Below are positions 37,247 to 64,000 of a stretch of DNA of 64,000 nt, piece after piece. Source of the stretch: Candidatus Methanomethylophilus sp. 1R26 (GTDB lineage Archaea; Thermoplasmatota; Thermoplasmata; Methanomassiliicoccales; Methanomethylophilaceae); the NCBI RefSeq assembly GCF_001481295.1, contig NZ_LOPS01000002.1:1-64000 (forward strand), given 5' to 3'. How positions within the stretch are numbered: the first letter of the stretch is position 1; each line of letters starts with the position of its first letter. The notes under the pieces were generated by a model, which had not been told where the DNA came from, made no database searches, and was given only the letters and a program-made list of their open reading frames with translations. A program made the position numbers and the translations under genes.

Positions 37247-37357
37247 CGGCAGTCCCAATCCTCTTCTCTTATTTAATAACGATAATAAATACGGGAACCG
37301 GAGGCGCCGCATGACAGCGGCGAAAACGCCTTAATGCGATTTCGGATGGGGGAACGC

Positions 37358-39609
37358 ATGAAGTTCGGCGACCTAGACATACCGGAGGAGCTCAAGAGGC
37401 TGCTGGAGGCCCAGGGTTTCTCCGAGATGTACCCCCCGCAGGCCGAGGCCATCCCCAAGGCGCTCTCCGGGAGGAATCTGGTCGCCGCCGTTCCCACCGC
37501 CTCCGGGAAATCGCTGATCGGTTTCATACCGGCGCTGACCTCGGTCCTGCGGGACCGCTGCCGCGTCCTCTACATCGTCCCGCTGAAGGCGCTGGCCTCC
37601 GAGAAGAGGGACGACCTCGCGAAATTCTCTGATCTGGGTATCCGCACGGTGTCAGCCACCGGCGACCCCGACAGGGACGAGGACATAGGGAACGCCGACA
37701 TAGTCATCGCCACCTCCGAGAAGGCGGACTCCCTCATCCGCCACGGGAACCGCTGGCTCGACGGCCTGGGTCTGCTGATCGCGGACGAGGTGCACATGAT
37801 ACACGACCCGGGGAGGGGGCCCACCCTGGAGGTCGCCATGACCAAGCTGATGCTCAGGAACCCCCGCCTGCAGGTCATCGCGCTGTCCGCCACCGTCTCC
37901 ACGCCGAGGACCTCGCCCGCTGGCTGGATGCGACCTGGTCAAGTCCGATTGGAGGCCGACGAAGCTGAGGGAGGGGGTGTACTTCAACGGGGAGATCGTC
38001 TTCGACGACGCCTCCTCCGTCCAGGTCCCCCCGGAGAAGGACGAGATGTGGGGCCTGATCAAGCAGACCGTGCAGGAAGGCGGCCAGGCGATGGTCTTCG
38101 TGAACTCCCGCAGGTCCGCCGAATCGCTCGCCTCCAAGTACGCCAAGCGCATGCTGGCACTTACGGGATCGAGCATCACCAAGGCAGAGCGCACGGTGCT
38201 CGAGGGCGGGGCGGAGACCACCGCGGTCGGTACCAAGCTGGCGGAGTGCGTCTCCTGCGGGATAGCCTTCCACCACGCCGGCCTCGCCTACGGTCAGAGG
38301 CGGGCTGTGGAGGACGGGTTCCGCGGCAGGAGGATCAAGTGCATCGTCGCCACCCCGACACTCGCCGCCGGAATCAACCTCCCCGCCAGGAGGGTCATCG
38401 TCAGGGACACCTCCCGTTTCGAGGCCAACGCCGGCAGCGTCCTCATACCGGTGATGGAGATCAAGCAGATGTGCGGGCGCGCAGGGCGCCCGGGCTACGA
38501 CCCTGGGGGGAGGCCGTGCTGATCGCCAAATCCTACGAGGACTACGAGCACCTGATGGATGATTACGTCTGCCACGACACCGAGAGGATCACTTCCAAGC
38601 TGGGGAACGAGGCGGCGCTGAGGTCCCATATCCTGGGGCTCATCGCCACAGGCGATGCCGGGTCCGAGGACAGCATAAAGATGTTCCTCGAATCCACATT
38701 CTTCGGCTCCACGAGCCAGATGTACGGAGTGGAGCAGCTGATCTCCAATGTCGTGGACTTCCTGGACGAGAACGGGATGGTGGAGACCGCAGGCGACAGC
38801 ATACGCATCCTCCCGTTCGGGAAGAGGGCGTCCGATCTCTACATCGACCCCTGGACAGCGGTCATACTGAAGAAGGCGGTCCTGAAGATGGACTCCTCCG
38901 CCGACGAGCTGCGGATCATGCAGGCGATCGCCTGCACACCTGACATCATGGGGATGTACCCGAAGAAGGGCGACAGGGACATGCTCGAGTCGATCGACGC
39001 CGAATACGACGGCGACTGGCTCTGCACCATAGAAGACGAGTGCGGAACGGACGACGGGGACGTCGCCTGGGACAATCATATGTCCGACCTCAAGACGGCC
39101 GTCCTCCTGAGGGATTGGATCGAGGAGAGGCCGGAGGAGTCCATCACCGAGGGGCTCGGGGTCGGCCCCGGCGACATCCGCTCGCGCGTGGACTCGGCGG
39201 ACTGGATCCTCTATGCCATGAACGAGGTGGCCATGATCTTCAACCCGGACGCTCCGGGATGATCAAGCCCCTGCTGACCAGGATGCGCTACGGAGTGAAG
39301 GAGGAGCTGATCCCCCTGGTCTCCCTGCGCGGAATCGGCAGGGCCAGGGCGAGGACCCTCTTCAATGCGGGCCTGCGGACGCGCGGCGACATAGCCAGGG
39401 CCGACGAGTCCGAGATAGCCTCGCTACCCAAGATCGGCCCGTTCCTCGCCAGGAGCCTCAAGGAACAGGTCGGTACGGAGGCCCCGGCCCTACCACCGGA
39501 GGACGCTCCGCCCCAGGATGATGAGGCCGACTATATGCTCGAGAAGATGGCTGCCGAAGAGGAGGCCAGGAACGCAGGCGGCCAGAAGAGCCTCGACAGC
39601 TACCGGTGA
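37358..39609 (+). CDS. hel308: Hel308-type (Ski2-like) DNA helicase (four frameshifts)
   Basis: Repairs stalled forks in archaea. Motifs: Q-like YPPQAEAIP, Walker A VPTASGKSLIGF, IADEVHMIHDPGRG (DEVH), ALSATVS, IAFHHAGLAYGQRR, VATPTLAAGINLPARRVIV and IKQMCGRAGRPGYD. The C-terminal part (LVSLRGIGRARARTLFNAGL) is the helix-hairpin-helix domain. Bases are missing near 37905, 37933, 38505 and 39257, splitting it into pieces; corrected it is about 750 residues, the family's length. ATG 37358 has GGGGGAA upstream. Confidence 0.92.
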
Positions 39610-39982
39610 AGGGATGCCTCCGGCAAATTGGAGACTGCACTGCCTCCTGCCGAAGCATCCTTCGGCGCAGGCATAGTCCGATGTCCTTTCCCGGAAGGCT
39701 GGAAGGAAAGTACGGTCCGCGATCGTGCAATCCCGGCATATCTCAGCATCTGGCACAGTTGCTCATGATCGCCTTTCCCTGTTCCGGGCATCGCGGCCTG
39801 TATCGATGCCGGCCCCTTAGCGCAATGAACATGACAACTCGGGTAAGAAGGCCGCATCCTTCGAGGCTCAGGAGAAGTTCTCGGAGGCCCTCTGAGCAAC
39901 GGCCGTGCGTCCGCAGACGGAACAGGCAAGCATCTCAGGGTGCCGGAAAGCATTGGGAATCTGATCTGGCACATGTCGATGA
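39610..39982. other. Gap of 373 bases without a supported gene
   Basis: Several short open frames cross this stretch on both strands, but none shows protein-like composition or family motifs; they are Arg/Ser/Pro-rich as expected of random GC-rich frames. No terminator with a T tract, tRNA or repeat was recognised. It could hold a degraded gene. Confidence 0.5.
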
Positions 39983-40444
39983 TCAGCTGAATCGATTCTT
40001 CTTCCTGCCGAGTTCGGGATATTTTCTGCTCAGCGGATAAGCGCCTGCCATCACGGGCACTGCCGCCAGGCAGAACACAGCGATACACACTGCAAAACTC
40101 TGTCCTGTGTCGACGCATATGGAATATACGATGAACAGGGCCGCCATAGACGCCCATGCGTACAGAAGATAGACGTAATATCCGCGGCTCGCGGGACGGC
40201 CGGCGAACGTCACTTCCGCTTCCGGATCGCTGAAGCGCTTTCCAAGGAAATAAGCGGAGACGGCCGCCGCCGCGATGATCCCAGCGAATATCCAGTACGA
40301 GGCCGCCGCCAGTGTTCCGCCCGCCGAATTCCGGGCATTGTTGAAACTGAGAATGGCTATGATCCCGATGACAGAGAGGATCAAAAGCAGCTCATCCCCG
40401 GTGAATCCGTGCGTTACTCCGAGCGTAGGATCCTTAGGCTTCAT
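39983..40444 (-). CDS. Four-helix hypothetical membrane protein, 153 aa
   Basis: Hydrophobic segments at about 17-35, 49-69, 90-110 and 118-138, with a basic C-terminus (RKYPELGRKKNRFS). It does not share the DDWQ or MSKKIEA loops of the other four-helix family, so I regard it as unrelated. ATG 40444 has GGTGAGAAG just upstream. No family recognised. It sits downstream of the RNase III-like gene on the same strand. Confidence 0.65.
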   Translation of the reverse strand: MKPKDPTLGVTHGFTGDELLLILSVIGIIAILSFNNARNSAGGTLAAASYWIFAGIIAAAAVSAYFLGKRFSDPEAEVTFAGRPASRGYYVYLLYAWASMAALFIVYSICVDTGQSFAVCIAVFCLAAVPVMAGAYPLSRKYPELGRKKNRFS

Positions 40445-40514
40445 CTTCTCACCTGTCCGTACAGTGAAAGACGATTTCTGAATATACGTGCATCGGACGG
40501 ATGTGTTCTCAGAA

Positions 40515-41075
40515 TCAGACCGCATTTCGCAATAAATCGGGATGCCTGACGGCTTTCGATATGCTGCGTTCCGAATCGATCATATCGATCCATCTGCGGA
40601 CGATCTCCAGGATCTCTCCCAGGTCCCCGTGCTCTTTGTAAATCCCGCCGAGAACGCCCTCCACCGCCGTGGCGATGTGCTTATGGGAGTTGTCATCATT
40701 CCTGCTCTTCTTGCTCTTGCCCTTGGACGGCTCTTTCGGGGACCAGACATAATCGGTCGCTATGTTCCTGTCGTTCCTGTCGTAGAGCATGTAGTCTGCG
40801 ATGCGGTAATGCTTCCCGATGACAGTGACCAGCACCATGTCGCTCTCGTACTCCTGCCTCGCCTTGGAAAGCTGCTCCCTGCGGTCCAGGAGCAGAGATG
40901 TCAAAGCGAACTTGAGAAGGGAGTCGCCGAAGGTTGCGAGGTTGAAGTTGTCGTCCGAATGCCCGGGGACGTTCCTGTTGACGTACTTCTTGTACGAATC
41001 GTCGGTAAGCCCGCGTTTCACCCACAAAAGACCGTCCCTGTTCTCGAGGGCTTCTGCGAAAGCATCCTCTGCCAT
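40515..41075 (-). CDS. RNase III-fold-like protein, 186 aa
   Basis: Two segments resemble the RNase III core: FNLATFGDSLLKFALTSLLL (compare NERLEFLGDxVL) and HIATAVEGVLGGIYKEHG (compare DxFEAxxGAxY). By this alignment only the Asp of GDS and the Glu of VEG keep the acidic positions; the other two are replaced, so it may be catalytically altered. A basic KGKSKKSRNDDNSHKH loop lies between them. No dsRNA-binding domain. ATG 41075 is preceded by GAGGTGA and lies 10 bases after the ATPase stop, so it is coupled to that gene. Confidence 0.55.
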   Translation of the reverse strand: MAEDAFAEALENRDGLLWVKRGLTDDSYKKYVNRNVPGHSDDNFNLATFGDSLLKFALTSLLLDRREQLSKARQEYESDMVLVTVIGKHYRIADYMLYDRNDRNIATDYVWSPKEPSKGKSKKSRNDDNSHKHIATAVEGVLGGIYKEHGDLGEILEIVRRWIDMIDSERSISKAVRHPDLLRNAV

Positions 41076-41085
41076 TGCAATCACC

Positions 41086-42360
41086 TCATGGGCCCAGGCA
41101 GGCGAGGGGGACCACCCACACGCCGTCACCCCTCTTGTAAGCAACATTTGTTGCCGTGAGGACCATGAGGAAGGACGGGGGCCTGCCTTCGACATCGTCA
41201 TTCAGTGCCAGAAGGCCTGATGCCGCAGCGTCAATGGCTTCCTTCGACGCTCCCAGTTTTATCTCTATGGCCGCCCAACTGTTGTCTCTGAGTGTAATCA
41301 CTGCGTCGCATTCCCTGCCATTCTTGTCGCGATAGTGCTTGACAGTTCCGTCGATGTTCTCCGCATACACCCTGAGATCGCGGATGCAAAGGCCCTCGAA
41401 AAGGAATCCGAAAAGCCTGGAATCCGATAATATGCCTTCCGGGCCCAGCCCCAAGGCCGCGCACGTCAGGGACGGATCGACGAAATATCTGGTCGGCCCG
41501 GTCCTGATGGCCGTTTTGGATCTGATGTTCGGATTCCATGCTTCCGATTCATCTACTACATAGATGTTCTTCAGGGCCTTGATGTACGATGCCACGGTGT
41601 TCTCCGAGATTGGCCCGTCCCCCGAAGAGACATCTTCGCCCATGGTGGCGTAGCTCGCCTGGGTCCCGCAGTTCCGGGCATAGGAGCGGAGAAGCCTGTC
41701 GACTTTTGCAGGATCGCGCTTGACCCCGTCCGCCTGAGAAAGCCCCGTTTTCACCAGCATCTTGTAGTAGTTCACTGCCTGGATGAGCGCCACGTCCCTC
41801 TCTTTTCCGATCGCTTGGGGCCATCCTCCTCTCGCGACATAGAAAGCGTAATCGTCAGGGGTGGCCTTCGATTGGGCAGGCTCCGGAGACTCTCCGTTGA
41901 AGAGGGACCTGATTGATATCTCTCCTGAGCTCTCGCCGGATTCGTAGAGAGTCATAGGCCTCATCACTATGATAGTGAAACGGCCCTCGCCGCTGTGAAG
42001 TTCTTCCATTACTTTCTGGGGCGGATTTTTGGATCCGGTTATGATGAACTGGCCGAACTCGTTGCGTTTGTCAACTTCGATTTTTATCTGATTCCAGATG
42101 AATGGGATCTCCTGCCATTCGTCGATCAGGAACGGAGGCTCATTGTCAAGGAAAGCCGATGGCCCGTTCTTGGCTTTCAGAACAAGCAGATCGTGCGTAT
42201 CCGCATCCTGCATGTTTACAGAAGACCTGGCGAATTGCTCCGCTGTCGTAGATTTCCCGCAAGATTTCGGACCTTTGATCCATATGGCCCCAGCAGACCT
42301 GAGATCGAACTCAAGCAATTTATCGACGATCCTGGGGATATATTTCTCATTGGTTTCCAT
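41086..42360 (-). CDS. DUF4143-type AAA ATPase with C-terminal PD-(D/E)XK-like domain
   Basis: 424 residues: Walker A GPKSCGKST (30-38), Walker B PPFLIDEWQEIP, sensor FGQFIITGSKNPP, a winged-helix middle region (NCGTQASYATMGEDVSS), and a DUF4143 C-terminal domain with a nuclease-like RECDAVITLRDNSWAAIEIKLG. Large paralogous families of these occur in host-associated archaea and bacteria; functions are largely unknown. ATG 42360 is preferred, with AGGAAG about 6 bases upstream. Base use is more AT-rich than the flanking threonine genes, consistent with acquisition. Confidence 0.82.
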   Translation of the reverse strand: METNEKYIPRIVDKLLEFDLRSAGAIWIKGPKSCGKSTTAEQFARSSVNMQDADTHDLLVLKAKNGPSAFLDNEPPFLIDEWQEIPFIWNQIKIEVDKRNEFGQFIITGSKNPPQKVMEELHSGEGRFTIIVMRPMTLYESGESSGEISIRSLFNGESPEPAQSKATPDDYAFYVARGGWPQAIGKERDVALIQAVNYYKMLVKTGLSQADGVKRDPAKVDRLLRSYARNCGTQASYATMGEDVSSGDGPISENTVASYIKALKNIYVVDESEAWNPNIRSKTAIRTGPTRYFVDPSLTCAALGLGPEGILSDSRLFGFLFEGLCIRDLRVYAENIDGTVKHYRDKNGRECDAVITLRDNSWAAIEIKLGASKEAIDAAASGLLALNDDVEGRPPSFLMVLTATNVAYKRGDGVWVVPLACLGP

Positions 42361-42404
42361 CGATTGCTTCCTCATGCTAATATGCTTATCTGGGTATTAA
42401 TCCG

Positions 42405-42496
42405 TTGCATCATTTGGACGGTTTTCGTTGCGCCATTTGGCTGAATTCAATTGCGCCATTTGGACGGTTTTCGTTGCGCCGTTCGGCAGCAGACCG
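42405..42496. repeat. Four 23-bp tandem repeats upstream of the ATPase gene
   Basis: Units begin TTGC at 42405, 42428, 42451 and 42474, an exact 23-base period. The core is TTGCGCCATTTGG. Units 1 and 3 continue ACGGTTTTCG, unit 2 continues CTGAATTCAA, and unit 4 is degenerate. The array ends 45 bases from the ATPase start, in its promoter-upstream region. 23 is not a multiple of 3 and the region is noncoding, so this looks like an array of protein-binding sites (iteron-like), not a coding repeat. Confidence 0.8.
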
Positions 42497-42533
42497 GCCA
42501 CGGCAGAACTCGCGTTATGAAAATGGAGAATGG

Positions 42534-42553
42534 GCCGGGGCTTCCGCCCCGGC
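42534..42553 (-). terminator. Hairpin terminator of thrC
   Basis: GCCGGGGC-ttcc-GCCCCGGC, a perfect 8-bp stem, lies 13 bases after the thrC stop; on the minus strand it is followed by a weak CATTCTCCATTTTC tract. Confidence 0.65.
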
Positions 42554-42566
42554 AAAGTTTTCGGCT

Positions 42567-53461: not shown

Positions 53462-56110
53462 ATGATGAACGAAGCCGGAATCGGCGACTGCACGAAGACC
53501 CTGAGCACCCCCGAGGGGGAGCTGACCATCTGGAGCCTCAGAGAGCTCGAGAAGAAGGGGGCTGCCGGGGACCTGCGCAGGCTCCCCTATTCCATCAGGG
53601 TGCTGCTCGAAGGCGTGCTCAGGCAGAGGGGCGAGACCATCTCGGACGACGATGTCAGGCGCATAGCCTCCTGGTCTCCCCGCGGCAACGACGCGGACAT
53701 ACCCTGGATCCCCGCCAGGGTGCTCCTGCAGGACTTCACCGGCGGGCCGGCCGTCACCGACCTCGCCTCCATGCGCGAGGCCATGGCCGCCGCCGGGAAG
53801 GACCCTGAGGCCGTCAACCCCCTCATACCCGTGGACCTGGTCATCGACCACTCGATCCAGACCGACGTCTCCGGATGCGCGGACGCCATGGAGAGGAACG
53901 AGAAGATAGACTTCTCGCGCAACAGGGAACGCTACGCCCTCTTCAAATGGGCGCAGGGCGCCTTCCGGAACTTCCGCGCCGTCCCCCCGTGGAGCGGCAT
54001 CTGCCACCAGGTGAACATAGAGTTCCTCTCGCCCCTGGTGCACGTCAAAGAGGAAGGCGGCAGGAAGATCGCGTATCCCGACTCCTGCTTCGGGACCGAC
54101 TCCCACACCACCCAGGTGGATGGCCTCGGCGTCGCCGGCTGGGGGGTCGGAGGGATCGAGGCGGAGGCCGTCATGGTGGGGCAGCCGTCCTACATGAGGC
54201 TGCCGGACGTGGTGGGCTTCAGGCTCACCGGGAAGCTGTCCCCGGGCGTCACCGCCACCGATCTGGTCCTCACCGCCGTCCAGATGCTCAGGCGGAAGGG
54301 CGTCGTAGGGAAGTTCGTGGAGTTCTTCGGCCCCGGGTACCAGTCCCTGGGCGTCTCCGACAGGTCCACCCTCGCCAACATGGCCCCGGAGTACGGCGCC
54401 ACCATGGGCTACTGCCCCGTGGACGGGAAGACCATGGAGTACCTCCGCCTCACCGGCAGGTCCGAGGACCATGTGAGGACGGCGGAGATCTACGAGAAGG
54501 AGCAGATGCTCTGGTACGACCCGGAGCACATCCCGGAGTACTCGGACACGCTGGAGCTGGACCTCTCCGAGGTGGTCCCGTCGGCCGCCGGCCACAAGAG
54601 GCCCCAGGACAGGATCCCCATCTCGGAGATGAAGGAAAGGTTCGCGGAGACCCTGAAGGCGCTGGGAGTGGAAAATCAGAGAGCGCCCTCCGGGGATGCG
54701 ATGGGCGACGGCTCGGTCGCCATCGCCTCGATCACCAGCTGCACCAACACCGCCAACCCCTCGGTGATGATCGCCGCCGGGCTCGTGGCGAAGAAGGCGT
54801 CCGAGCTGGGTCTGAGGCCGAGGCCGTATGTCAAGACCTCCCTGGCCCCCGGGTCCAAAGCGGTCACCGACTACCTGGTGCGCTCAGGGCTCCAGAAGTA
54901 CCTCGACGATGAGGGATTCCAGAACTGCGGCTACGGATGCATGACCTGCATCGGCAACTCCGGGCCGCTCTCCGACAGGGTGACGGAGATGATCAAGGGC
55001 CGCGACCTCGCCGTCGCCGCCGTCGCCTCCAGCAACAGGAACTTCGAGGGCAGGATCCATCCCCTGGTGAAGGCCAACTACCTCATGTCCCCTCCCCTGG
55101 TCGTCTGCTTCGCCATCGCCGGCAGGGTCGACATCGACCTCGACCGCGAGCCGCTGGCGATGAAGGACGGGAAAGAGATATTCATGAGGGACCTCTGGCC
55201 GTCGGACAGGGAGATCGATGAGTTCATGGCGGAGTACGTCACCTCCGAAGCGTTCAGGAACGGGTACGACGGCATCTACAAAGGCTCCGACCTCTGGAAC
55301 TCCATCGAGGTCCCCAAGACCCCGCTGTTCTCCTGGGACCCGAAGTCGACGTACATCAGGAACCCCCCTTACTTCGAGCTCCTCTCCGAGGAGCCGGGGA
55401 TCGCATCGGTGCGCGGAGCGAGGTGCCTGATGAAACTGGGCGACAGCATAACCACCGACCATATCTCGCCCGCCGGGCAGTTCTCCGAGAACACGTCCGC
55501 CGGGAAGTACCTGATTTCCCTGGGCGTGAAGAAGGAGGACTTCAACTCCTACGGTTCGAGGAGAGCCAACCACGAGGTCATGGTGCGCGGGACGTTCGCG
55601 AACGTGAGGCTGAGGAACCAGATAGTTCCGGGGACCGAGGGAGGATACTCCGAGTACATCCCGGACGGAACGGTGGACTTCGTCTATGAGACGTCCAGGA
55701 AATACCTGCACGACGGAACGCCGCTGATCGTCATCGCCGGCAGGGACTACGGCATGGGGAGCTCCCGCGACTGGGCCGCCAAAGGACCGATGCTGCTGGG
55801 CGTCAGGGCCGTCATCGCCGAGTCGTTCGAGAGGATCCACAGGTCCAACCTCGTCGGCATGGGTATCGTCCCGCTGCAGTTCAGGGAAGGCGAGAACGCG
55901 GAGAAGCTGGGATTGGACGGGACCGAATCATACGACATCGACCTGGAAGGGTTGGCGCCCAAGAAGGCCGTAAAGGTAACGGCGGCGAAGAAGGACGGGT
56001 CGAGGATCGAGTTCGAGACCGTCTGCCGCGCCGATGTCCCCATCGAGGTGCAGTACATCGCCAACGGCGGGATACTGCAGTTCGTGATGAGAAGGATGAT
56101 TGCTGAATAA
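53462..56110 (+). CDS. acnA: Aconitate hydratase AcnA
   Basis: Citrate/isocitrate interconversion for the partial TCA route to 2-oxoglutarate. The 882-residue protein is complete: TDSHTTQVDGLGVAGWGVGG, the cluster ligands in SITSCTNTANPSVM and MTCIGNSG, the domain-4 swivel RDYGMGSSRDWAAKGPML and SFERIHRSNLVGMG. Belongs to the AcnA/IRP type, unlike many methanogens that use a LeuC-like aconitase. A ribosome binding site GGAGAG precedes two adjacent ATGs (53462, 53465). No frame break in 2.6 kb. Confidence 0.95.
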   Translation: MMNEAGIGDCTKTLSTPEGELTIWSLRELEKKGAAGDLRRLPYSIRVLLEGVLRQRGETISDDDVRRIASWSPRGNDADIPWIPARVLLQDFTGGPAVTDLASMREAMAAAGKDPEAVNPLIPVDLVIDHSIQTDVSGCADAMERNEKIDFSRNRERYALFKWAQGAFRNFRAVPPWSGICHQVNIEFLSPLVHVKEEGGRKIAYPDSCFGTDSHTTQVDGLGVAGWGVGGIEAEAVMVGQPSYMRLPDVVGFRLTGKLSPGVTATDLVLTAVQMLRRKGVVGKFVEFFGPGYQSLGVSDRSTLANMAPEYGATMGYCPVDGKTMEYLRLTGRSEDHVRTAEIYEKEQMLWYDPEHIPEYSDTLELDLSEVVPSAAGHKRPQDRIPISEMKERFAETLKALGVENQRAPSGDAMGDGSVAIASITSCTNTANPSVMIAAGLVAKKASELGLRPRPYVKTSLAPGSKAVTDYLVRSGLQKYLDDEGFQNCGYGCMTCIGNSGPLSDRVTEMIKGRDLAVAAVASSNRNFEGRIHPLVKANYLMSPPLVVCFAIAGRVDIDLDREPLAMKDGKEIFMRDLWPSDREIDEFMAEYVTSEAFRNGYDGIYKGSDLWNSIEVPKTPLFSWDPKSTYIRNPPYFELLSEEPGIASVRGARCLMKLGDSITTDHISPAGQFSENTSAGKYLISLGVKKEDFNSYGSRRANHEVMVRGTFANVRLRNQIVPGTEGGYSEYIPDGTVDFVYETSRKYLHDGTPLIVIAGRDYGMGSSRDWAAKGPMLLGVRAVIAESFERIHRSNLVGMGIVPLQFREGENAEKLGLDGTESYDIDLEGLAPKKAVKVTAAKKDGSRIEFETVCRADVPIEVQYIANGGILQFVMRRMIAE

Positions 56111-56118
56111 ACTTATTA

Positions 56119-56143
56119 GGTCCCGGAAGGGGCCCTTCTTTTC
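56119..56143 (+). terminator. Intrinsic terminator of acnA
   Basis: GGTCCC-ggaa-GGGGCC (with G-U pairing) followed by CTTCTTTTC, 9 bases after the acnA stop. Confidence 0.6.
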
Positions 56144-56310
56144 ATAATATATAAAATAACAGGCTTTTGAGTCCGATTATCGCCCTGAAGATGCATCTTG
56201 CGGCCGATCGAACTGACTGCCTGATAGGAGGCCCTCTGGCCATTGAGACCCCCGCATTGGAAACAAAGATAGCCAGAATTAAAAATGGCTCAATTGGATT
56301 GATTTCAAAA

Positions 56311-56334
56311 TATAACTTTAATAAGTTATATAAC
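56311..56334. promoter_or_regulatory. cas operon promoter region with overlapping palindromes
   Basis: TATAACTT-taat-AAGTTATA (56311-56330) and the overlapping palindrome GTTATATAAC (56325-56334) sit in an AT-rich stretch about 50-75 bases before the cas3 ATG. They may be the TATA/BRE region or a repressor site. The rest of the 56144-56384 interval holds no supported gene. Confidence 0.55.
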
Positions 56335-56384
56335 ATAACAAACTACATATACATTATCGAATATTCTATATCATGGAGGATTGA

Positions 56385-58764
56385 ATGCCGGCCAACATCG
56401 CTCACATAAGAGAAGACGGCGATTCGAAAGTAATCCAGACTCTGGAAGACCATCTGGAAGGGACCGCCGAGCTAGCATCCACATTCCTATCAAAAGTCGG
56501 TCTGGTGAAAACCGGCCGCCTCCTCGGCCTCCTGCATGATCTTGGAAAGGCTACGGAAGTATTCAATCAATATGTCGCAGGTAATTCGGACGCTTCCCGC
56601 GGAGAGATAGACCATTCTACTGCCGGAGCACAATACCTATTCGATTCCCATCCGGAAACGCAGAATCCGAAAACCGCCGAAGATTCGTTCAAAAAGACTT
56701 CACTGCAGATGATGGAACTGGCCATTGCATCGCATCATTCCGGTCTTATCGATTGCATAACCGAAGACGGAAGAAACCGCTATTGGGAACGCATGGTGAA
56801 AAAACGACGACGAAACACATCTGAATGAGGCCATGAACAGGGTAGGATTCCTGTCGATGGAAAAAATCAAGGTAGCAGAGAATGCCGCCTTGAATGAATT
56901 GTCAAAGGCCGTCAGAGACATCTATGAAAAATGCGACAGAAAGGCTTCGAACGTATCATTCCAGTGGGGCCTGCTGACAAGGCTGCTTCTTAGCGCCCTT
57001 GTCGATGCTGATCGCACTGACACCATGGAATTCCAGGATAATCGCACATATCGTTCGAAGAAAGCCGATTGGAAACTGCTCAAGAACAGATTCTATGATT
57101 ATACTTTGAATCTGCCTGTCCGCAATTCGCTTGACGAGATAAGGCGTACAATCTCAGACCAATGCTTCGCAGCGTCGTCAATGCCCAAAGGGCTTTTCAG
57201 CCTGACTGTTCCCACCGGTGGAGGTAAGACCCTTTCAAGTCTCAGATTCGCTCTCGAGCATGCGGAACACTACGGCATGGATCACATAATCTATGTGATC
57301 CCGTACACAACCATCATTGATCAGAATGCCAAGGCGGTAAAAAGCATCTTAAACCGTTCACCCAGAGACAATAACGTGACTGAATGCCATTCCAACATCG
57401 ATGTTTATGAATCCGATGACCCATCAACCGCATCGTTCGCAATGGATACATGGGATTCTCCGATAGTTTTCACGACCGTCGTTCAATTCTTGGAAGTAAT
57501 CTATGCTGGTGGCACCAAACGTCTTAGAAGGATGCACAATCTGACCAATTCCGTGATTATATTCGATGAAGTTCAGAAGATTCCGGTCAAATGCCTAAGT
57601 CTGTTTAATGAGGCTTTGGGATTCCTCACCGAATTCTGCAGATCTAGCGTCGTACTGTGCACTGCAACACAACTGCCTTTCGAGGAATATGGCAGGCATC
57701 CTCTCTCCTCTTCAGTCCCCCGGGAGATCATCGGAGATGTAGGTGGCCTATTCTCTTCGATGAAACGTGTAAAGATAGAGAAGGTCGATTCCCCTCCGAT
57801 GTCCGCGGAAGGCGTAGCCTCCATGGCATGTGATCTGATCAACAAATCGGGAAGCGTGCTCATCATCGTCAATACAAAGACTATGGCGAAGAACGTCCAC
57901 TCTGCGCTTCAAACCATGATTCCAGACGACGTGAAATTGTATCACCTCAGCACCAATATGTGCCAGATGCACCGTTCGAAAAAACTCGACGAAATGATAG
58001 ACGTCCTCGGAAAAATGAAAGTCATATGCGTGAGCACGCAACTGATAGAGGCTGGGATCGATGTCGATTTCGAGACGGTCATAAGATGCACTGCAGGATT
58101 GGATTCGATTGCACAAGCGGCTGGACGTTGCAATCGCAATGCACTGAAGGAGACTGGTAAAGTCTACGTCGTCGATACCAATGAAAACCTCGGAAGCCTG
58201 CCTGAAATAGAGAGAGGAAGGGATTTCGCAAACCAGGTCATACGTGAAACGGACGATATTCTTAAACCTGCTTCAATCATGAAATATTTTAAACTTTATT
58301 TTACAAACAGTCACAAAATATATTACGACTATCCCATAGATATGGGAAAGACAGAATTTGACCTTCTGTCTACCAACACCATCTTATGGGATAATTACAA
58401 GAGAGCCTCTGAAAAATCGGGCCGCCCGGTGAATAATATCACCTTGAAACAATCTTTCTCCGTAGCCAACTCGAGATTCAACGTCATTGACGGGACAGAT
58501 TGCCTGGTCGTTCCGTATAATGATGATGCCAGAGCGGCCATTTCCGCCCTTCAGGGCAACGGCTACAGTATTGCAGAGAGGAGGAGGCTGCTCATATCTC
58601 TGCAGAAGTATGCAGTTAATGTGCATAATCTAAATAGGATGCTGACGGAACATAAGGCATATGCGATCGGGGGCGAGACCGAACTCTACTGCCTGGCTGA
58701 AGGTTACTATGACGAAGACTACGGCCTCGTGAATGAACCAGTGATGAAAACCATGCTTCTGTGA
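56385..58764 (+). CDS. cas3: Cas3 (HD nuclease-helicase), type I-C (one-base frameshift)
   Basis: Degrades DNA recruited by Cascade. HD part: HLEGTAELASTF, LLGLLHDLGKATEVFNQY, IDHSTAGAQYLF and AIASHHSGL. Helicase part: Walker A VPTGGGKTLSSL, VIIFDEVQKIP, STQLIEAGIDVDFETV and AQAAGRCNRNA. The two parts are out of frame: GTG-A6-CGACG near 56806 should read with five A's (MVKNDDETHLNEAMN), so one A is apparently extra. Corrected about 793 residues. The start follows GGAGG by 5 bases. First gene of the operon; more AT-rich than the upstream region. Confidence 0.95.
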
Positions 58765-58773
58765 GGAAGGAAA

Positions 58774-59484
58774 ATGAAAAATCAGATTGAATTCTCAGTA
58801 TATGGGAGAAGGGCACTTTTCACAGACCCTGTTACGAAGGTCGGCGGAGAGAAGTTCAGTTATCCAGTACCGACATATGAAGCCCTCAAAGGCATCTGCG
58901 AATCTATCTATTGGAAACCGACGATCATCTGGTACGTCGATTCGGTACGCATAATGAAAAGGATACGCAACGAATCGGTCAGCATCAAGAACCTCAATTA
59001 CGGTGGGGGAAACGATCTATCGATCTACTCCTACCTGTCCGGCGTGGACTATCATGTCCGGGCCCATTTCGAGTGGAATATGAATAGAGAGGACCTGGCG
59101 AAAGACCGCAACGAGAACAAGCATTACTTCCAGGCAGTCAGAGCCCTTGAGCGCGGAGGCCGGCGTGACATTTTTCTGGGAACAAGGAAGTGCCAGGCAT
59201 ATGTGGTGCCGTGCAGCTTCGAGGATGGAAAGGGCGACTATGATCAGACTGGTTCCGTGACTTTCGGGCTAATGTTCCATGGATTCGACTATGCCGATGA
59301 AACAGGGACGAACGGACTCGATGTACGTTTCTGGACCCCCATGATGACCGACGGCATCATAGATTACATCCGCCCTGAAATGTGCCAGATTCGCAAGCAC
59401 ATCTATAGTTACCATCGCGCAACATCCCTGTTAACTTGGAGGCTGAAGAATGAACTGGATGGAGGTGCTCGTCAAAACTTATGA
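58774..59484 (+). CDS. cas5c: Cas5c (Cas5d), crRNA-processing subunit of type I-C
   Basis: In type I-C there is no Cas6; Cas5c/d cuts pre-crRNA and caps the complex. The 236-residue protein has Tyr46, Lys116 and His117 exactly where the catalytic triad of the well-studied Bacillus Cas5d lies (Y46, K116, H117): ESIYWKP and NENKHYFQ. Other family blocks: SVYGRRALFTDPVTKVGGEK and GTRKCQAYVVPC. Ribosome binding site GAGGAAGG upstream. It overlaps cas8c by 35 bases. Confidence 0.95.
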   Translation: MKNQIEFSVYGRRALFTDPVTKVGGEKFSYPVPTYEALKGICESIYWKPTIIWYVDSVRIMKRIRNESVSIKNLNYGGGNDLSIYSYLSGVDYHVRAHFEWNMNREDLAKDRNENKHYFQAVRALERGGRRDIFLGTRKCQAYVVPCSFEDGKGDYDQTGSVTFGLMFHGFDYADETGTNGLDVRFWTPMMTDGIIDYIRPEMCQIRKHIYSYHRATSLLTWRLKNELDGGARQNL

Positions 59485-61335
59485 CGAATGTTCAGATAAA
59501 GAAAGCGGCGCCACCGGCGAATATCCCCTGCTCCCGTTGCATCACACGGTCCGCAACATCCATATCGAAATTAGGATCAGTGAAAAGGGCGATTTCATCA
59601 GCGCCAAAATCCTGCCTAAAGATATGCAGCCGACAGTAATCCCCTGCACCGAAGATTCGGAGAACAGGACCAGCGGGATCGCACCTCACCCCCTTTGCGA
59701 TAGTATCGAATATCTTGCATCGGACATCGAAGCTTATCTGGCCAATCCCCCTGATGATGCGAAGAGCAAAAACGAAAACCGGTGCGCACGCAGAATACAT
59801 CGGACTGCTTAATGATTGGTGCGACAGCAGCTGCTCCAATCCAAAGATTAAGGCCGTACGCGATTATCTCCTGAAGAACACGATAATCTCAGACCTTGTG
59901 GAAGCCGGAGTGCTGTTCACTGATGAAGCAGGCAAACTGGTCAATAAAAACCACGAAACATCCGATTACCCGATTTTCAAGATAGCTCAGACCACCGAAC
60001 AGCAGAAGGCAATGGTCAGGTGGGCGGTAGAATCCAAAGATGACGTAATGACGGATACTTGGAACGATGAAGCGATTCACCAGTCGTGGATAGACTACTG
60101 CAACTCTCTGAATAAAGACGAGGGACTGGACTACATCACCGGAAAAATCGTCCCTCTGGCTTCCAAGCATCCTGCCGATATCCGGAGGAGCGGAGATAAG
60201 GCGAAGCTAATTACCTCCAATGACAAATCAGGATTCACATTCCGCGGACGTTTCACAGACAGCAACCAAGTGTGCGGAATAGGAATGGATGCCAGCCTCA
60301 AGATGCACAGTGCCCTGAGATGGCTCATCAGACGTCAGGGATACAGATGGGGGGACCTTTGCATCATTACGTGGACTCTGTCTGGTGAAAAGGTCAGCAA
60401 CCCCGTAGATGATCCATTGGAATGGAACCGGGAGGATGAACCGAAAATTGCAGATACAGGCATCGAGAACGCGATACGCATAAACAGCAGGCTTAGGGGA
60501 TACAATTCCAAGATTCTCAATGAAACAGTTTTCCTGATGGCCATAGATTCGGCAGTACCCGGACGCATGTCCATCCTGATGTTCCGCGATGAACTAGGAA
60601 ACGATTTCGTCAGGAAATTAGAAAGATGGCAGGAGATCTGCGGATGGAAACATACTTACGCAAAAGACAAAAAAAGATCCCAAGAAGAGCATTACCTTCT
60701 ATGGGGCCTCCTCGCCTGCGGCCATCGTAAAGACCGCATACGGGAACAGGAGCGATACTCAGAAGAAGATCGAAGAGAAATCAATCATGAGGATCCTCGA
60801 GTGCATAATGAACGAAGGCAACATGCCGGGAGACATTGCTGAGTGCGCAGTCAGGCGCTGCTCCAACCCGCTCTCCTTCAAAGGGATTGCGGATTGGCGT
60901 AACAACCTAAGCATCGCGTGCTCGGCATACAACGGCTACACGGGAGGAAAATACAAGATGACATTGGAAAAAGATAGAAAGACGAGAGACTACCTCTACG
61001 GGAGGCTACTGGCAATGGCCGACCTCCTTGAGAGCAGCGCACTCAGAAAAACAAATGAGGACAGACAGACGACTGCAATCAGGTACATGCAGAGATTCTC
61101 GGAGTTTCCCTACACTACGTGGGAGGATATCGAGCTCGCGCTTGTACCGTACAAGGCAAGGCTGGGAAAAATGGTCTCTTATTACGAGTCCGAGATCTCC
61201 AAGATCATGGACATGTTCGAGGGAGACGACTTCAGAAACAACAAGAAGCTTAGCGGAGAGTTCCTCCTGGCATATCACTGCCAGAGAGAGGAGCATTTCA
61301 GAGGAAAGAACACAGACAATGAAGAAGAGGAGTGA
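59450..61335 (+). CDS. cas8c: Cas8c (Csd1), large Cascade subunit of type I-C (two frameshifts)
   Basis: Recognises the PAM and opens target DNA. Three fragments: MNWMEVLVKTYDECSDKESG; TGAHAEYIGLLNDWCDSSCS; and ASSPAAIVKTAYGNRSDTQK leading to MRILECIMNEGNMPGDIAEC. Near 59772 one A seems extra in A5, and near 60704 one base is extra in ACCTTC. Corrected about 628 residues. The order after cas5c is typical. Its stop overlaps the cas7 region. The N-terminus follows GGAGGCTGAAG. Confidence 0.92.
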
Positions 61336-61340
61336 CAGGA

Positions 61341-62207
61341 ATGACCGCAATAAAGAACAAAATCGACTTCGCAATAATTATGACCGTAAACGGAGCTAAC
61401 CCCAATGGAGATCCTCTCAACGGGAACCGCCCCCGGACAACCGTCGACGGTTACGGGGAGATTTCCGACGTCTGTATCAAGCGCAAGATCCGCAACAGAC
61501 TTCAGGACATGGGTTTAAAGATATTCGTCCAGTCAGACGATAGGTCAGACGATGGATATAAGAGCCTCCGGGAACGTGCCGAGCCGATCGTCAAAGGAAA
61601 GAACGCAGACGACCTCGTCAAAGCAGTCTGCAACGAATGGATTGATGTCCGTTCCTTCGGACAGCTCTTCGCATTCAGCAACAAAGGCAAGTCAAAGAAA
61701 GGCGAGGAAGAGGGTCTTGAGAACAGCAAAGGGGTTTCGATAGGCATCAGAGGGCCTGTTTCTATCCGCCCGGCATTCAGCGCGGCCCCGGTTACCATCA
61801 CCAGTCTGCAGATCACCAAATCCGTGAATTCCGTTGAGAGCGAAACCCGCGGAAGCGACACAATGGGAATGAAGCACCGCGTGGACCACGCTGTATATAC
61901 TGTATACGGCAGCATCAACACCCAACTAGCCCAGAAGACCGGATTCTCGGATGAAGACGCTGAGGCCATTAAGAATGCCCTCATCACACTCTTTGAGAAT
62001 GATTCCTCATCTGCCCGTCCGGACGGAAGCATGGATGTCGTAAGGGTCTACTGGTGGAAGCACAACTGCCCCGGCGGACAGTACTCCTCGGCAAAGGTGC
62101 ACGGTTCGCTCACAGTCACGCCCAAGGTCAGCGAGCCCCACGGCATCGAGGACTATGAGATAAAGCTGTCAGAACTCGAAGGGCTTAAGCCTGAAATCTA
62201 CGAATGA
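61341..62207 (+). CDS. cas7c: Cas7c (Csd2), Cascade backbone subunit
   Basis: Forms the crRNA-binding backbone. 288 residues: TAIKNKIDFAIIMTVNGANP, NGDPLNGNRPRTTVDGYGEI, SDVCIKRKIRNRLQDMG, VRSFGQLFAFS and GIRGPVSIRPAFS are typical of the Cas7 RRM-fold family in type I-C. ATG 61341 follows AGGAGTGACAGGA; GTG 61332 is an alternative. No frame break. Confidence 0.95.
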   Translation: MTAIKNKIDFAIIMTVNGANPNGDPLNGNRPRTTVDGYGEISDVCIKRKIRNRLQDMGLKIFVQSDDRSDDGYKSLRERAEPIVKGKNADDLVKAVCNEWIDVRSFGQLFAFSNKGKSKKGEEEGLENSKGVSIGIRGPVSIRPAFSAAPVTITSLQITKSVNSVESETRGSDTMGMKHRVDHAVYTVYGSINTQLAQKTGFSDEDAEAIKNALITLFENDSSSARPDGSMDVVRVYWWKHNCPGGQYSSAKVHGSLTVTPKVSEPHGIEDYEIKLSELEGLKPEIYE

Positions 62208-62222
62208 ACAATTCATCCTTCC

Positions 62223-62882
62223 ATGAAATACCAGGAAGAAGATTATCTCCAGATGTCTGGCATCCAGCATTTCTGCTTCTGTAGAAGGCAGTGGGCGCTG
62301 ATCAACCTGGAGCAGTCATGGGAGGATGATGCCAGGACAACCGCAGGTCAGATTTTCCATGAAGTCGCCGACGATCCCACTATAAAGGAGAAAAGAGGAG
62401 ATCTGATAATCGCCCGTGCTGTGCCTGTATCTTCATCTTCCTTGGGCCTGACCGGAAAATGCGATGTTGTGGAATTCCGCAGAAGTGACGACGGTGTCCC
62501 TGTAGGCATACACGAAGGAAGTTACAAAATCATCCCTGTGGAATATAAAGTGGGCCATCGGAAACAAGAGGAATGGGACGAAGTCCAATTGTGCGCCGAG
62601 GCGATTGCGCTTGAGGAGACGTTCGGAGCGAGAATAGAGTTCGGGCAACTGTTCTACGGAGAGGAAAGACGGCGCAAGACTGTAGAAATGAGCAAAGACC
62701 TGAGAAGAAAGACCGAACTCCTGGCTGAAGATATGCATTCAGCCATGTCTTATGGAAAGATTCCTGAAGCTGAGCCCTCGGCGATGTGCAGGAAATGCTC
62801 TCTTCAGAACATCTGCATGCCGGAGGCCTTAGGGCATTCTGATTCCGAAGATTATCTTCAGAGAATGGAGGAATCGAATTGA
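62223..62882 (+). CDS. cas4: Cas4, CRISPR adaptation nuclease
   Basis: Selects and trims PAM-containing spacer precursors. 219 residues: N-terminal cysteine region (FCFCRRQWALI), RecB-like nuclease core (GLTGKCDVVEF, IIPVEYKVG) and the C-terminal three-cysteine cluster CRKCSLQNIC that with the N-terminal Cys binds iron-sulfur. The stop overlaps the cas1 start. Confidence 0.95.
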   Translation: MKYQEEDYLQMSGIQHFCFCRRQWALINLEQSWEDDARTTAGQIFHEVADDPTIKEKRGDLIIARAVPVSSSSLGLTGKCDVVEFRRSDDGVPVGIHEGSYKIIPVEYKVGHRKQEEWDEVQLCAEAIALEETFGARIEFGQLFYGEERRRKTVEMSKDLRRKTELLAEDMHSAMSYGKIPEAEPSAMCRKCSLQNICMPEALGHSDSEDYLQRMEESN

Positions 62883-63909
62883 AACATCTGCTCAACACAC
62901 TTTATGTGACCACTGACGGATCGTACATAAGGAAGGATGGAACCAATTTGGTCGTATCTACCAAGGAGAAAGAACTTGGACGGATACCAGTATTCAACAT
63001 CCAATCTCTGGTATGTTTCGGCAATATAGGTGTTTCACCGTATGCGATGAGGCTCTGTTCTGAGAACGGTGTCTCCGTCTCCTTCATGACAGATCACGGA
63101 AGATTCATAGCATCGGTACAGGGTGAGATAAGAGGCAACGTCCTTCTGAGAAGAGAGCAGTATCGTATAGCTGATGACCCCGTCAGATCGCTGAATATCG
63201 CCAAACATATGGTGCGCGGGAAACTGGTCAACTGCAGAAAGGTACTGTCCAAAGGTTTCAGCAATCACCCCGATCGATCGATCCTGCCAAAATGAACTCA
63301 TGTATCCAAACCCTGAAAAAAGCCACTGAAGACGCCATATCAGCCGAGTCCGCAGATGAACTCAGAGGTATCGAGGGATGCGCTGCCACAGCTTACTTTG
63401 AATGCCTGGATCAGCTCATTCTGAAAGATAAGGATAATTTCTTTATACGCGGACGCAACCGCAGACCTCCGCGGGACAGGTTCAATGCATTGATATCGTT
63501 TCTTTATGCCCTTCTCGCAAACGACATTGCTTCAGCTCTAGAATCCGTGGGTATTGATCCATACGTAGGATTCATGCATACCGACCGTCCTGGAAGAGCG
63601 TCGTTGGCCCTGGATATGATGGAAGAGTTCAGACCCGCAGCGGATCGTGTAGCCCTGCGCCTGATCAACCTCGGTCTGCTCGACAAGAATGGATTCATAG
63701 AAAAAGAGGGCGGGGCGGTGCTACTTGATGACGGCGGCAGAAAATCAGTACTTGAGGAATGGCAGGAATGTAAGAAAGGCAATGTCAGGCATCCTTTCCT
63801 CAATGAGAATGTCCCTATGGGAATTGTCCCCTTTGTTCAGGCAAGCCTTCTTGCAAGGAGCATCAGGGGCGAGATCGACGGATATCCCCCCTTTATACTG
63901 GTGCAGTGA
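62879..63909 (+). CDS. cas1: Cas1, integrase (TTG start; one-base frameshift)
   Basis: Integrates new spacers. N-terminal beta domain: MKHLLNTLYVTTDGSYIRKD, ELGRIPVFNIQSLVCFGN; C-terminal helical domain: RGIEGCAATAYFECLDQLIL (metal Glu), RFNALISFLYALLANDIASA, VGFMHTDRPGRASLALDMME (metal His, Asp). A base seems missing in the GATC repeat near 63275; the frame then resumes DPAKMNSCIQTLKK. TTG 62879 is 7 bases after GGAGG and overlaps the cas4 stop. Corrected about 343 residues. Confidence 0.94.
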
Positions 63910-63910
63910 T

Positions 63911-64000
63911 ATGATTGTGCTCATAACTTATGATGTCTGCACGTCGGAAGAAGACGGGGCCGGAAGACTCCGCAGAGTCGCAAGAATCTGCCTTAATTAC
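63911..64000 (+). CDS. cas2: Cas2, partial (cut by window end)
   Basis: The first 30 codons begin MIVLITYDVCTSEEDGAGRL and RRVARICLNY, the ferredoxin-like first strand and helix of Cas2, the structural partner of Cas1. It starts just after the cas1 stop. A type I-C array would be expected soon downstream, outside this window. Confidence 0.9.
   Translation, partial: MIVLITYDVCTSEEDGAGRLRRVARICLNY

Follow-up and report, generated by a model that had tools for sequence, protein, structure and literature searches.

Gene-specific tandem arrays upstream of DUF4143 ATPase genes covary with two residues of the encoded proteins

Introduction

A DUF4143 ATPase gene of the archaeon Candidatus Methanomethylophilus sp. 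1R26 probably carries a private operator array, with a product that would bind the array's units and control its own promoter. The array goes with the ATPase and not with the RNase III-like gene that follows it; the relationship is general, found in archaea and bacteria, and apparently undescribed. Because the unit sequence changes in step with two residues of the protein, the ATPase very probably reads its own array. Judged from such sequence patterns, we take binding of the ATPase to its own units to be highly likely and autoregulation to be the array's probable main role. A first-pass annotation of this DNA had named a self-regulating element among several roles, and this is the reading that we find best and hold to be probable.

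Results

Layout of the locus

The window, the whole 64,000-nucleotide stretch of DNA analysed here, carries on its minus strand, in order, a tandem array, the ATPase gene, the RNase III-like gene and an ORF whose product is probably a membrane protein. The array (42403..42486) ends 27 bases 5' of the ATPase start codon and consists of four repeat cores (CCGAACGGCGCAACG, CCAAATGGCGCAATT, CCAAATGGCGCAACG and CCAAATGATGCAACG) at exact 23-base spacing, which occupy 42403-42417, 42426-42440, 42449-42463 and 42472-42486. They bear out the four upstream repeats of exact 23-base period in the first-pass annotation. By eye, the cores are impure at unit position 1, with G in one and T in two. TRF finds this to be the sole tandem array in the 64 kb. 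The ATPase gene (41086..42375) encodes an AAA_14-winged helix-DUF4143 (PD-(D/E)XK-like) protein, PDC-S01 in PADLOC (PDLC04790). The RNase III-like gene (40515..41075) starts 10 bases past the ATPase stop, in agreement with the coupling described earlier, and 3' of it lies the ORF for the probable small membrane protein (39983..40444, inner start MKPKDP...).

These genes occupy a strain-variable patch (39599..42565) with a GC content of 0.55-0.57 against 0.62-0.64 in the flanks, so the AT-richness first noticed there is real. In the final 8 kb of the window (56001-64000), GC falls to 0.45-0.51. The window genome is a 1.72-Mb MAG, 83% complete. Left of the patch, a helicase gene is split over two frames (37334-39262 and 37977-38522), and the frame is intact in the closed sister genome G035 (758 aa; L026 6429-8705); the frameshifts in the MAG are either real or assembly errors.

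A PDC-S01 ATPase with intact motifs

The ATPase matches Pfam AAA_14 (1.8e-13, 51.1 bits against a curated cut-off of 27) and DUF4143 (1e-34, 120 bits against 28.1), and the PDC-S01 profile PDLC04790 covers the whole protein (residues 5-427, 5.9e-64). Each of the 46 relatives scanned likewise has a match among the PDC-S01 models. Walker A (G35..G40 K41, within GPKSCGKS at residues 35-42, 42250..42273, minus strand) and Walker B (D85 E86) are intact in the window ATPase. Among the 47 sequences, G35, G40, K41, D85 and E86 of the ATPase motifs and D357, E371 and K373 of the PD-(D/E)XK motif are invariant.

The AlphaFold model is confident (pLDDT 90.5) and comprises an AAA+ core, a winged helix (helices 222-234, 242-249 and 258-270) and a C-terminal nuclease-like domain. 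With the motifs intact, this bears out the domain composition first read from the letters. Residue 259 lies at the N-terminus of helix 258-270, the predicted recognition helix (41566..41604, minus strand), and residue 351 falls in the loop 350-354, which connects two strands in the nuclease-like domain (41314..41328, minus strand). The nearest folds in Foldseek are those of AAA+ winged-helix proteins bound to DNA, Orc1/Cdc6 for example, and also DnaA-origin complexes; taken over the full chain, these matches are weak (TM 0.2-0.3). No solved relative was convincing, and profile comparison gave no match to Orc1/Cdc6.

Arrays precede ATPase genes in archaea and bacteria

For each relative, the highest-scoring direct repeat with a period between 8 and 60 was taken from the 300 bases upstream of the gene, and its score was compared with 20 dinucleotide shuffles per gene. 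Repeats before the ATPase genes of other organisms, a check that the first-pass annotation had proposed, are abundant. Among relatives from the same order, 85 of 94 have upstream direct repeats scoring above all shuffles, with a period of 23 in 73, 46 in 6 and 24 in 4. A second set, drawn from genome contigs and mostly bacterial (Firmicutes, Spirochaetes, Bacteroidota, Gardnerella and others, with a few archaea), exceeds the shuffles in 73 of 79 cases (period 23 in 68, 46 in 3). A score of 14 was reached in 1 of 65 control stretches taken 700-1020 bases further upstream, against 66 of 79 real upstream regions. A few genes occur in both sets, and two duplicate proteins were removed when the covariation described below was rechecked. 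L206, L208 and L210, from Euryarchaeota or Methanomassiliicoccaceae MAGs, carry arrays identical to those of L068, L070 and L089 of the order set, in keeping with the place of the window genome in the Methanomassiliicoccales. Relatives in viruses, though few, also carry upstream repeats; with 10 only in 2.9 million viral contigs, the ATPase is rare as viral cargo.

Other PDC-S01 subfamilies differ in period or have no array. The second subfamily (PDLC04786/04792) has arrays in 29 of 29 cases, with a period of 33 or 34 bp or double that, and one at 32. A period of 33 bp exceeds one of 23 bp by roughly a helical turn, which would fit neighbouring protomers that keep their relative rotation. The third subfamily (PDLC04787) has direct repeats in 2 of 29 cases, about chance level, and serves as an internal negative control of the repeat scoring. 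Together, the shuffles, the further-upstream controls and this array-free subfamily rule out a chance array. In some of its members (L305, L314, L315 and L316) a palindrome (GGAATTTATTGGATATATCCAATATATTTGGAAT-like) lies directly 5' of the ATPase gene. Since a clear array is lacking in 9 of the 94 order-set genes, in 6 of the 79 genome-contig genes and throughout the third subfamily, an array is not required for every DUF4143 ATPase.

Each gene has its own unit

The units are gene-specific, with 144 of 148 distinct, and they share one register and a common frame, (G)CCAAA-NNNNNN-AAYRAAA followed by an AT-rich spacer. Between two genes, the median identity is 11 of 23 positions. Arrays mostly hold 3 to 6 units, and up to 15. 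One very long array, 5' of the ATPase gene of L122 (G061:C2), has about a dozen near-perfect 23-bp copies. In the window's own genome, a frame-split ATPase relative of the 23-bp type (L012, L022 and L024; G000:C42:30856-31349) still has a 23-period array upstream.

The last unit starts at a median of 45-47 bp 5' of the start codon. Judged by composition and distance, the arrays lie at promoters: in archaea an AT-rich, TATA-like stretch covers the end of the last unit, and in bacteria a -10-like stretch comes just after it. For the window unit, a search of its own genome gave no other convincing sites, near-matches being no more frequent than those to a reversed-pattern control. As the window array sits at the promoter and holds the only convincing sites in the genome, autoregulation is the simplest role for it.

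Two residues covary with two unit positions

When mutual information was computed for all pairs of protein residue and unit position, the top two pairs were residue 351 with position 1 and residue 259 with position 11. K351 goes with G at position 1 in 59 of 61 cases and S351 in 0 of 30; for K, R and Q at residue 351 taken together the count is 69 of 75, against 4 of 59 for all other residues. At position 11, K259 goes with G (27 of 31), D259 with C (27 of 35) and I, V or P259 mostly with A, so that K or R at residue 259 pairs with G and D with C. The pairings at both residues are ordinary side-chain/base chemistry. Net of overall protein similarity, partial correlations tie the variable block most strongly to residue 45 and residues 257-261, unit positions 14-16 to residues 281-292, and the flank to residues 349-353. 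When sequences are labelled by the commonest residue alone, column 243 scores highest for G at position 11.

Such covariation could partly be inherited with clades, and a test of phylogenetically independent pairs, on a tree built without the covarying columns, argues against this: residue 351 and position 1 change together in a ratio of 20:1 (p=2e-5) and residue 259 and position 11 in a ratio of 11:0 (p=1e-3). With proteins at least 90% alike removed, the couplings have p=1e-25 and 3e-11, respectively, and after redundancy removal both hold separately in the archaeal and genome-contig sets. The independent pairs and the redundancy filtering make phylogenetic inheritance unlikely as the sole cause.

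A model for the array, and its rivals

We propose that the ATPase, built of an AAA+ motor, a winged helix and a PD-(D/E)XK-like domain, would occupy its array at one protomer per 23-bp unit. The recognition helix of the winged helix would read unit position 11 through residue 259, and the loop of the C-terminal domain would read position 1 through residue 351, on the same face of the DNA. Because positions 1 and 11 are ten bases, one helical turn, apart, a single protomer may reach both. Tandem units would then align an oligomer, presumably ATP-dependent, beside and partly over the gene's own promoter, and the array-bound ATPase would control the expression of its own gene, most simply by repression. 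Cross-regulation between paralogues of the same cell would not be expected, since each unit changes along with its protein.

Some arrays, with 13-15 copies, are longer than an operator requires, and the protein matches a defence candidate and keeps the invariant D357/E371/K373 nuclease motif alongside the ATPase motifs. This would suit a platform on which the nuclease docks and is restrained or armed: the ATPase would sit on its own array as an inactive oligomer, to be released or activated when the complex is disturbed by an invader or by DNA damage, as in a sensor or addiction-type defence with secondary effects on the promoter. Array and gene also vary together between strains, as such a platform might. 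The arrays are, however, consistently at the promoter, as operators would be, and we consider the platform rather unlikely as the main role.

The array deserves the description iteron-like that it was first given, and its place 5' of an AAA+ winged-helix gene, with Orc1/Cdc6 and DnaA-origin complexes among the nearest folds, could suggest a replication origin in a relic or live integrated replicon, with the ATPase as a Rep-like initiator and the array as its iterons. Such genes are, however, chromosomal and many per genome, with 20 DUF4143 matches in the window's own genome; no downstream gene recurs as a partner (clusters reach at most 3 of 165), and the viral contigs contribute only their 10 relatives. 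An origin is therefore very unlikely, and the autoregulatory operator remains our preferred reading.

The RNase III-like gene is a neighbour of the array-ATPase unit

The RNase III-like protein scores 35.7 bits (1.6e-8) with Pfam Ribonuclease_3, whose cut-off is 27. Its family is a scattered one of degenerate RNase III domains, in which two of the four metal-binding acids remain. As the first-pass annotation had counted, two acids are kept in the window protein, those equivalent to D44 and E110 of RNase III, and the equivalents of E40 and D107 are lost. A single-sequence structure model is uninformative (pLDDT 36), and we relied instead on profile evidence: the family profile matches solved RNase III domains, down to 3.6e-16. 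A search of named genomes gave no close relatives of the window protein.

That annotation had joined the ATPase, the RNase III-like protein and the array in one module. It would have dropped the idea if the two genes never co-occurred elsewhere and no RNase III fold was predicted. The first of these is what we found, as only one of the 171 ATPase loci, the one in the window, has an RNase III domain within some 1.5 kb of the ATPase; the case against is complete by half, since the profile supports the RNase III relationship. In selected neighbourhoods, a chosen set rather than a full census, the genes adjoining related degenerate RNase III genes vary. A conserved pair is ruled out by the count of loci and by the sister strain, which keeps an RNase III-like gene alone at this locus, and the gene is probably an incidental neighbour of the array-ATPase unit. 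A joint RNA-based module for defence or regulation could draw on the ten-base coupling and on L150 (4065-7216, G041:C284), where 6 bp separate an ATPase gene of a different kind (ATPase_2-like, by eye) from a degenerate RNase III-like gene that follows it and is convergent with a DUF4143 ATPase; given the single locus and the sister strain, it is largely refuted as a conserved module and we give it hardly any credence.

In-frame TAG codons occur in the RNase III-like gene of L027 (8956-9462) and in the ATPase genes of the relatives L111 and L115. Pyrrolysine read-through is known from the archaeal group to which these belong, and the codons possibly reflect it, rather than pseudogenes.

Gene and array come and go together

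The flanks of the patch are 98% identical to those in G035, which is of the same species, and within the patch homology is confined to the RNase III-like gene. G035 has 792 bp in its place, with an RNase III-like protein 65% identical to that of the window and with neither ATPase nor array. At a second locus, an ATPase of the 33-bp type and its array are present in the sister strain. The window genome has 144 bp there, with a 33-bp array relic but no ATPase gene (L325 1560-1640, G000:C48; 22 of 27 matches at lag 33), and the relic differs from the array of the sister. Gene and array are gained and lost together. Between the two strains, orthologous ATPases about 90% alike have visibly diverged arrays. 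No clean, transposon-like insertion was seen at the two variable sites. A role of the array in moving the gene, as a site of recombination or homing, might be hinted at by presence and absence at two sites; it is exceedingly improbable given the lack of clean insertions, the relic of a different 33-bp array in the second empty site and the placement of arrays on one side of the gene only.

Discussion

The arrays are a first concrete candidate for the DNA target of the PDC-S01 family, and come with a residue-level code. They also give a sequence signature for spotting PDC-S01 genes and relics, and the family may be a source of many orthogonal DNA-binding ATPases. More tentatively, PDC-S01 ATPase-nucleases could form a cross-domain class of self-addressed elements, each gene with a private array read only by its own product through an evolvable two-residue code. 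In such a class, which we put forward as a possibility, and a doubtful one, the period (23 or 33 bp) would be set by subfamily, many paralogues would coexist orthogonally within a cell, and the array-bound oligomer would be the resting or sensing state of a defence machine.

PDC-S01, an ATPase fused to PD-(D/E)XK in a single gene, is reported to rank fourth in frequency among the defences of prokaryotes, and for most PDCs experimental validation is said to be pending (PMC12988326). The main text of that paper makes no mention of promoters, winged helices or such arrays, and we found no validated mechanism for PDC-S01 in the literature. The window protein and its 46 relatives are PDC-S01 members by their model matches; what sets them apart from PDC-S01 as published are the arrays, the gene-specific units and the protein-DNA covariation, of which the open-licence papers searched hold no description, and the novelty is provisional because the search covered such papers only.

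The small family of the RNase III-like neighbour resembles the RNase III of Drosha, Dicer and bacteria in its profile matches to RNase III domains, and differs in having lost two of four metal-binding acids; beyond the window it has no linkage to the ATPase. In iteron plasmid Rep systems, tandem repeats with a period of about two helical turns precede the gene for their own binding protein. The arrays described here likewise lie 5' of the gene of a putative binding protein, but the genes are chromosomal and exist as multi-copy paralogues.

Archaeal Orc1/Cdc6 proteins share with the ATPase the combination of AAA+ and winged helix, are DNA-bound, and provide its best Foldseek matches; one of them, Orc1-2, is described as a non-initiator regulator (PMC9738581). 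The structural likeness is slight (TM 0.2-0.3), no sequence relationship was found, and the ATPase adds a PD-(D/E)XK-like domain and private arrays. RptR, a repressor of a phage defence island, is an autoregulator whose own promoter holds the three direct repeats that it binds (PMC12255303), and by composition and distance the ATPase genes also have direct repeats in their own promoter regions. RptR, however, is a 9-kDa dimer with 9-bp repeats and a 6-bp palindrome conserved across genomes, whereas the arrays described here go with AAA+ nuclease-like ATPases, and their units are non-palindromic and private to each gene.
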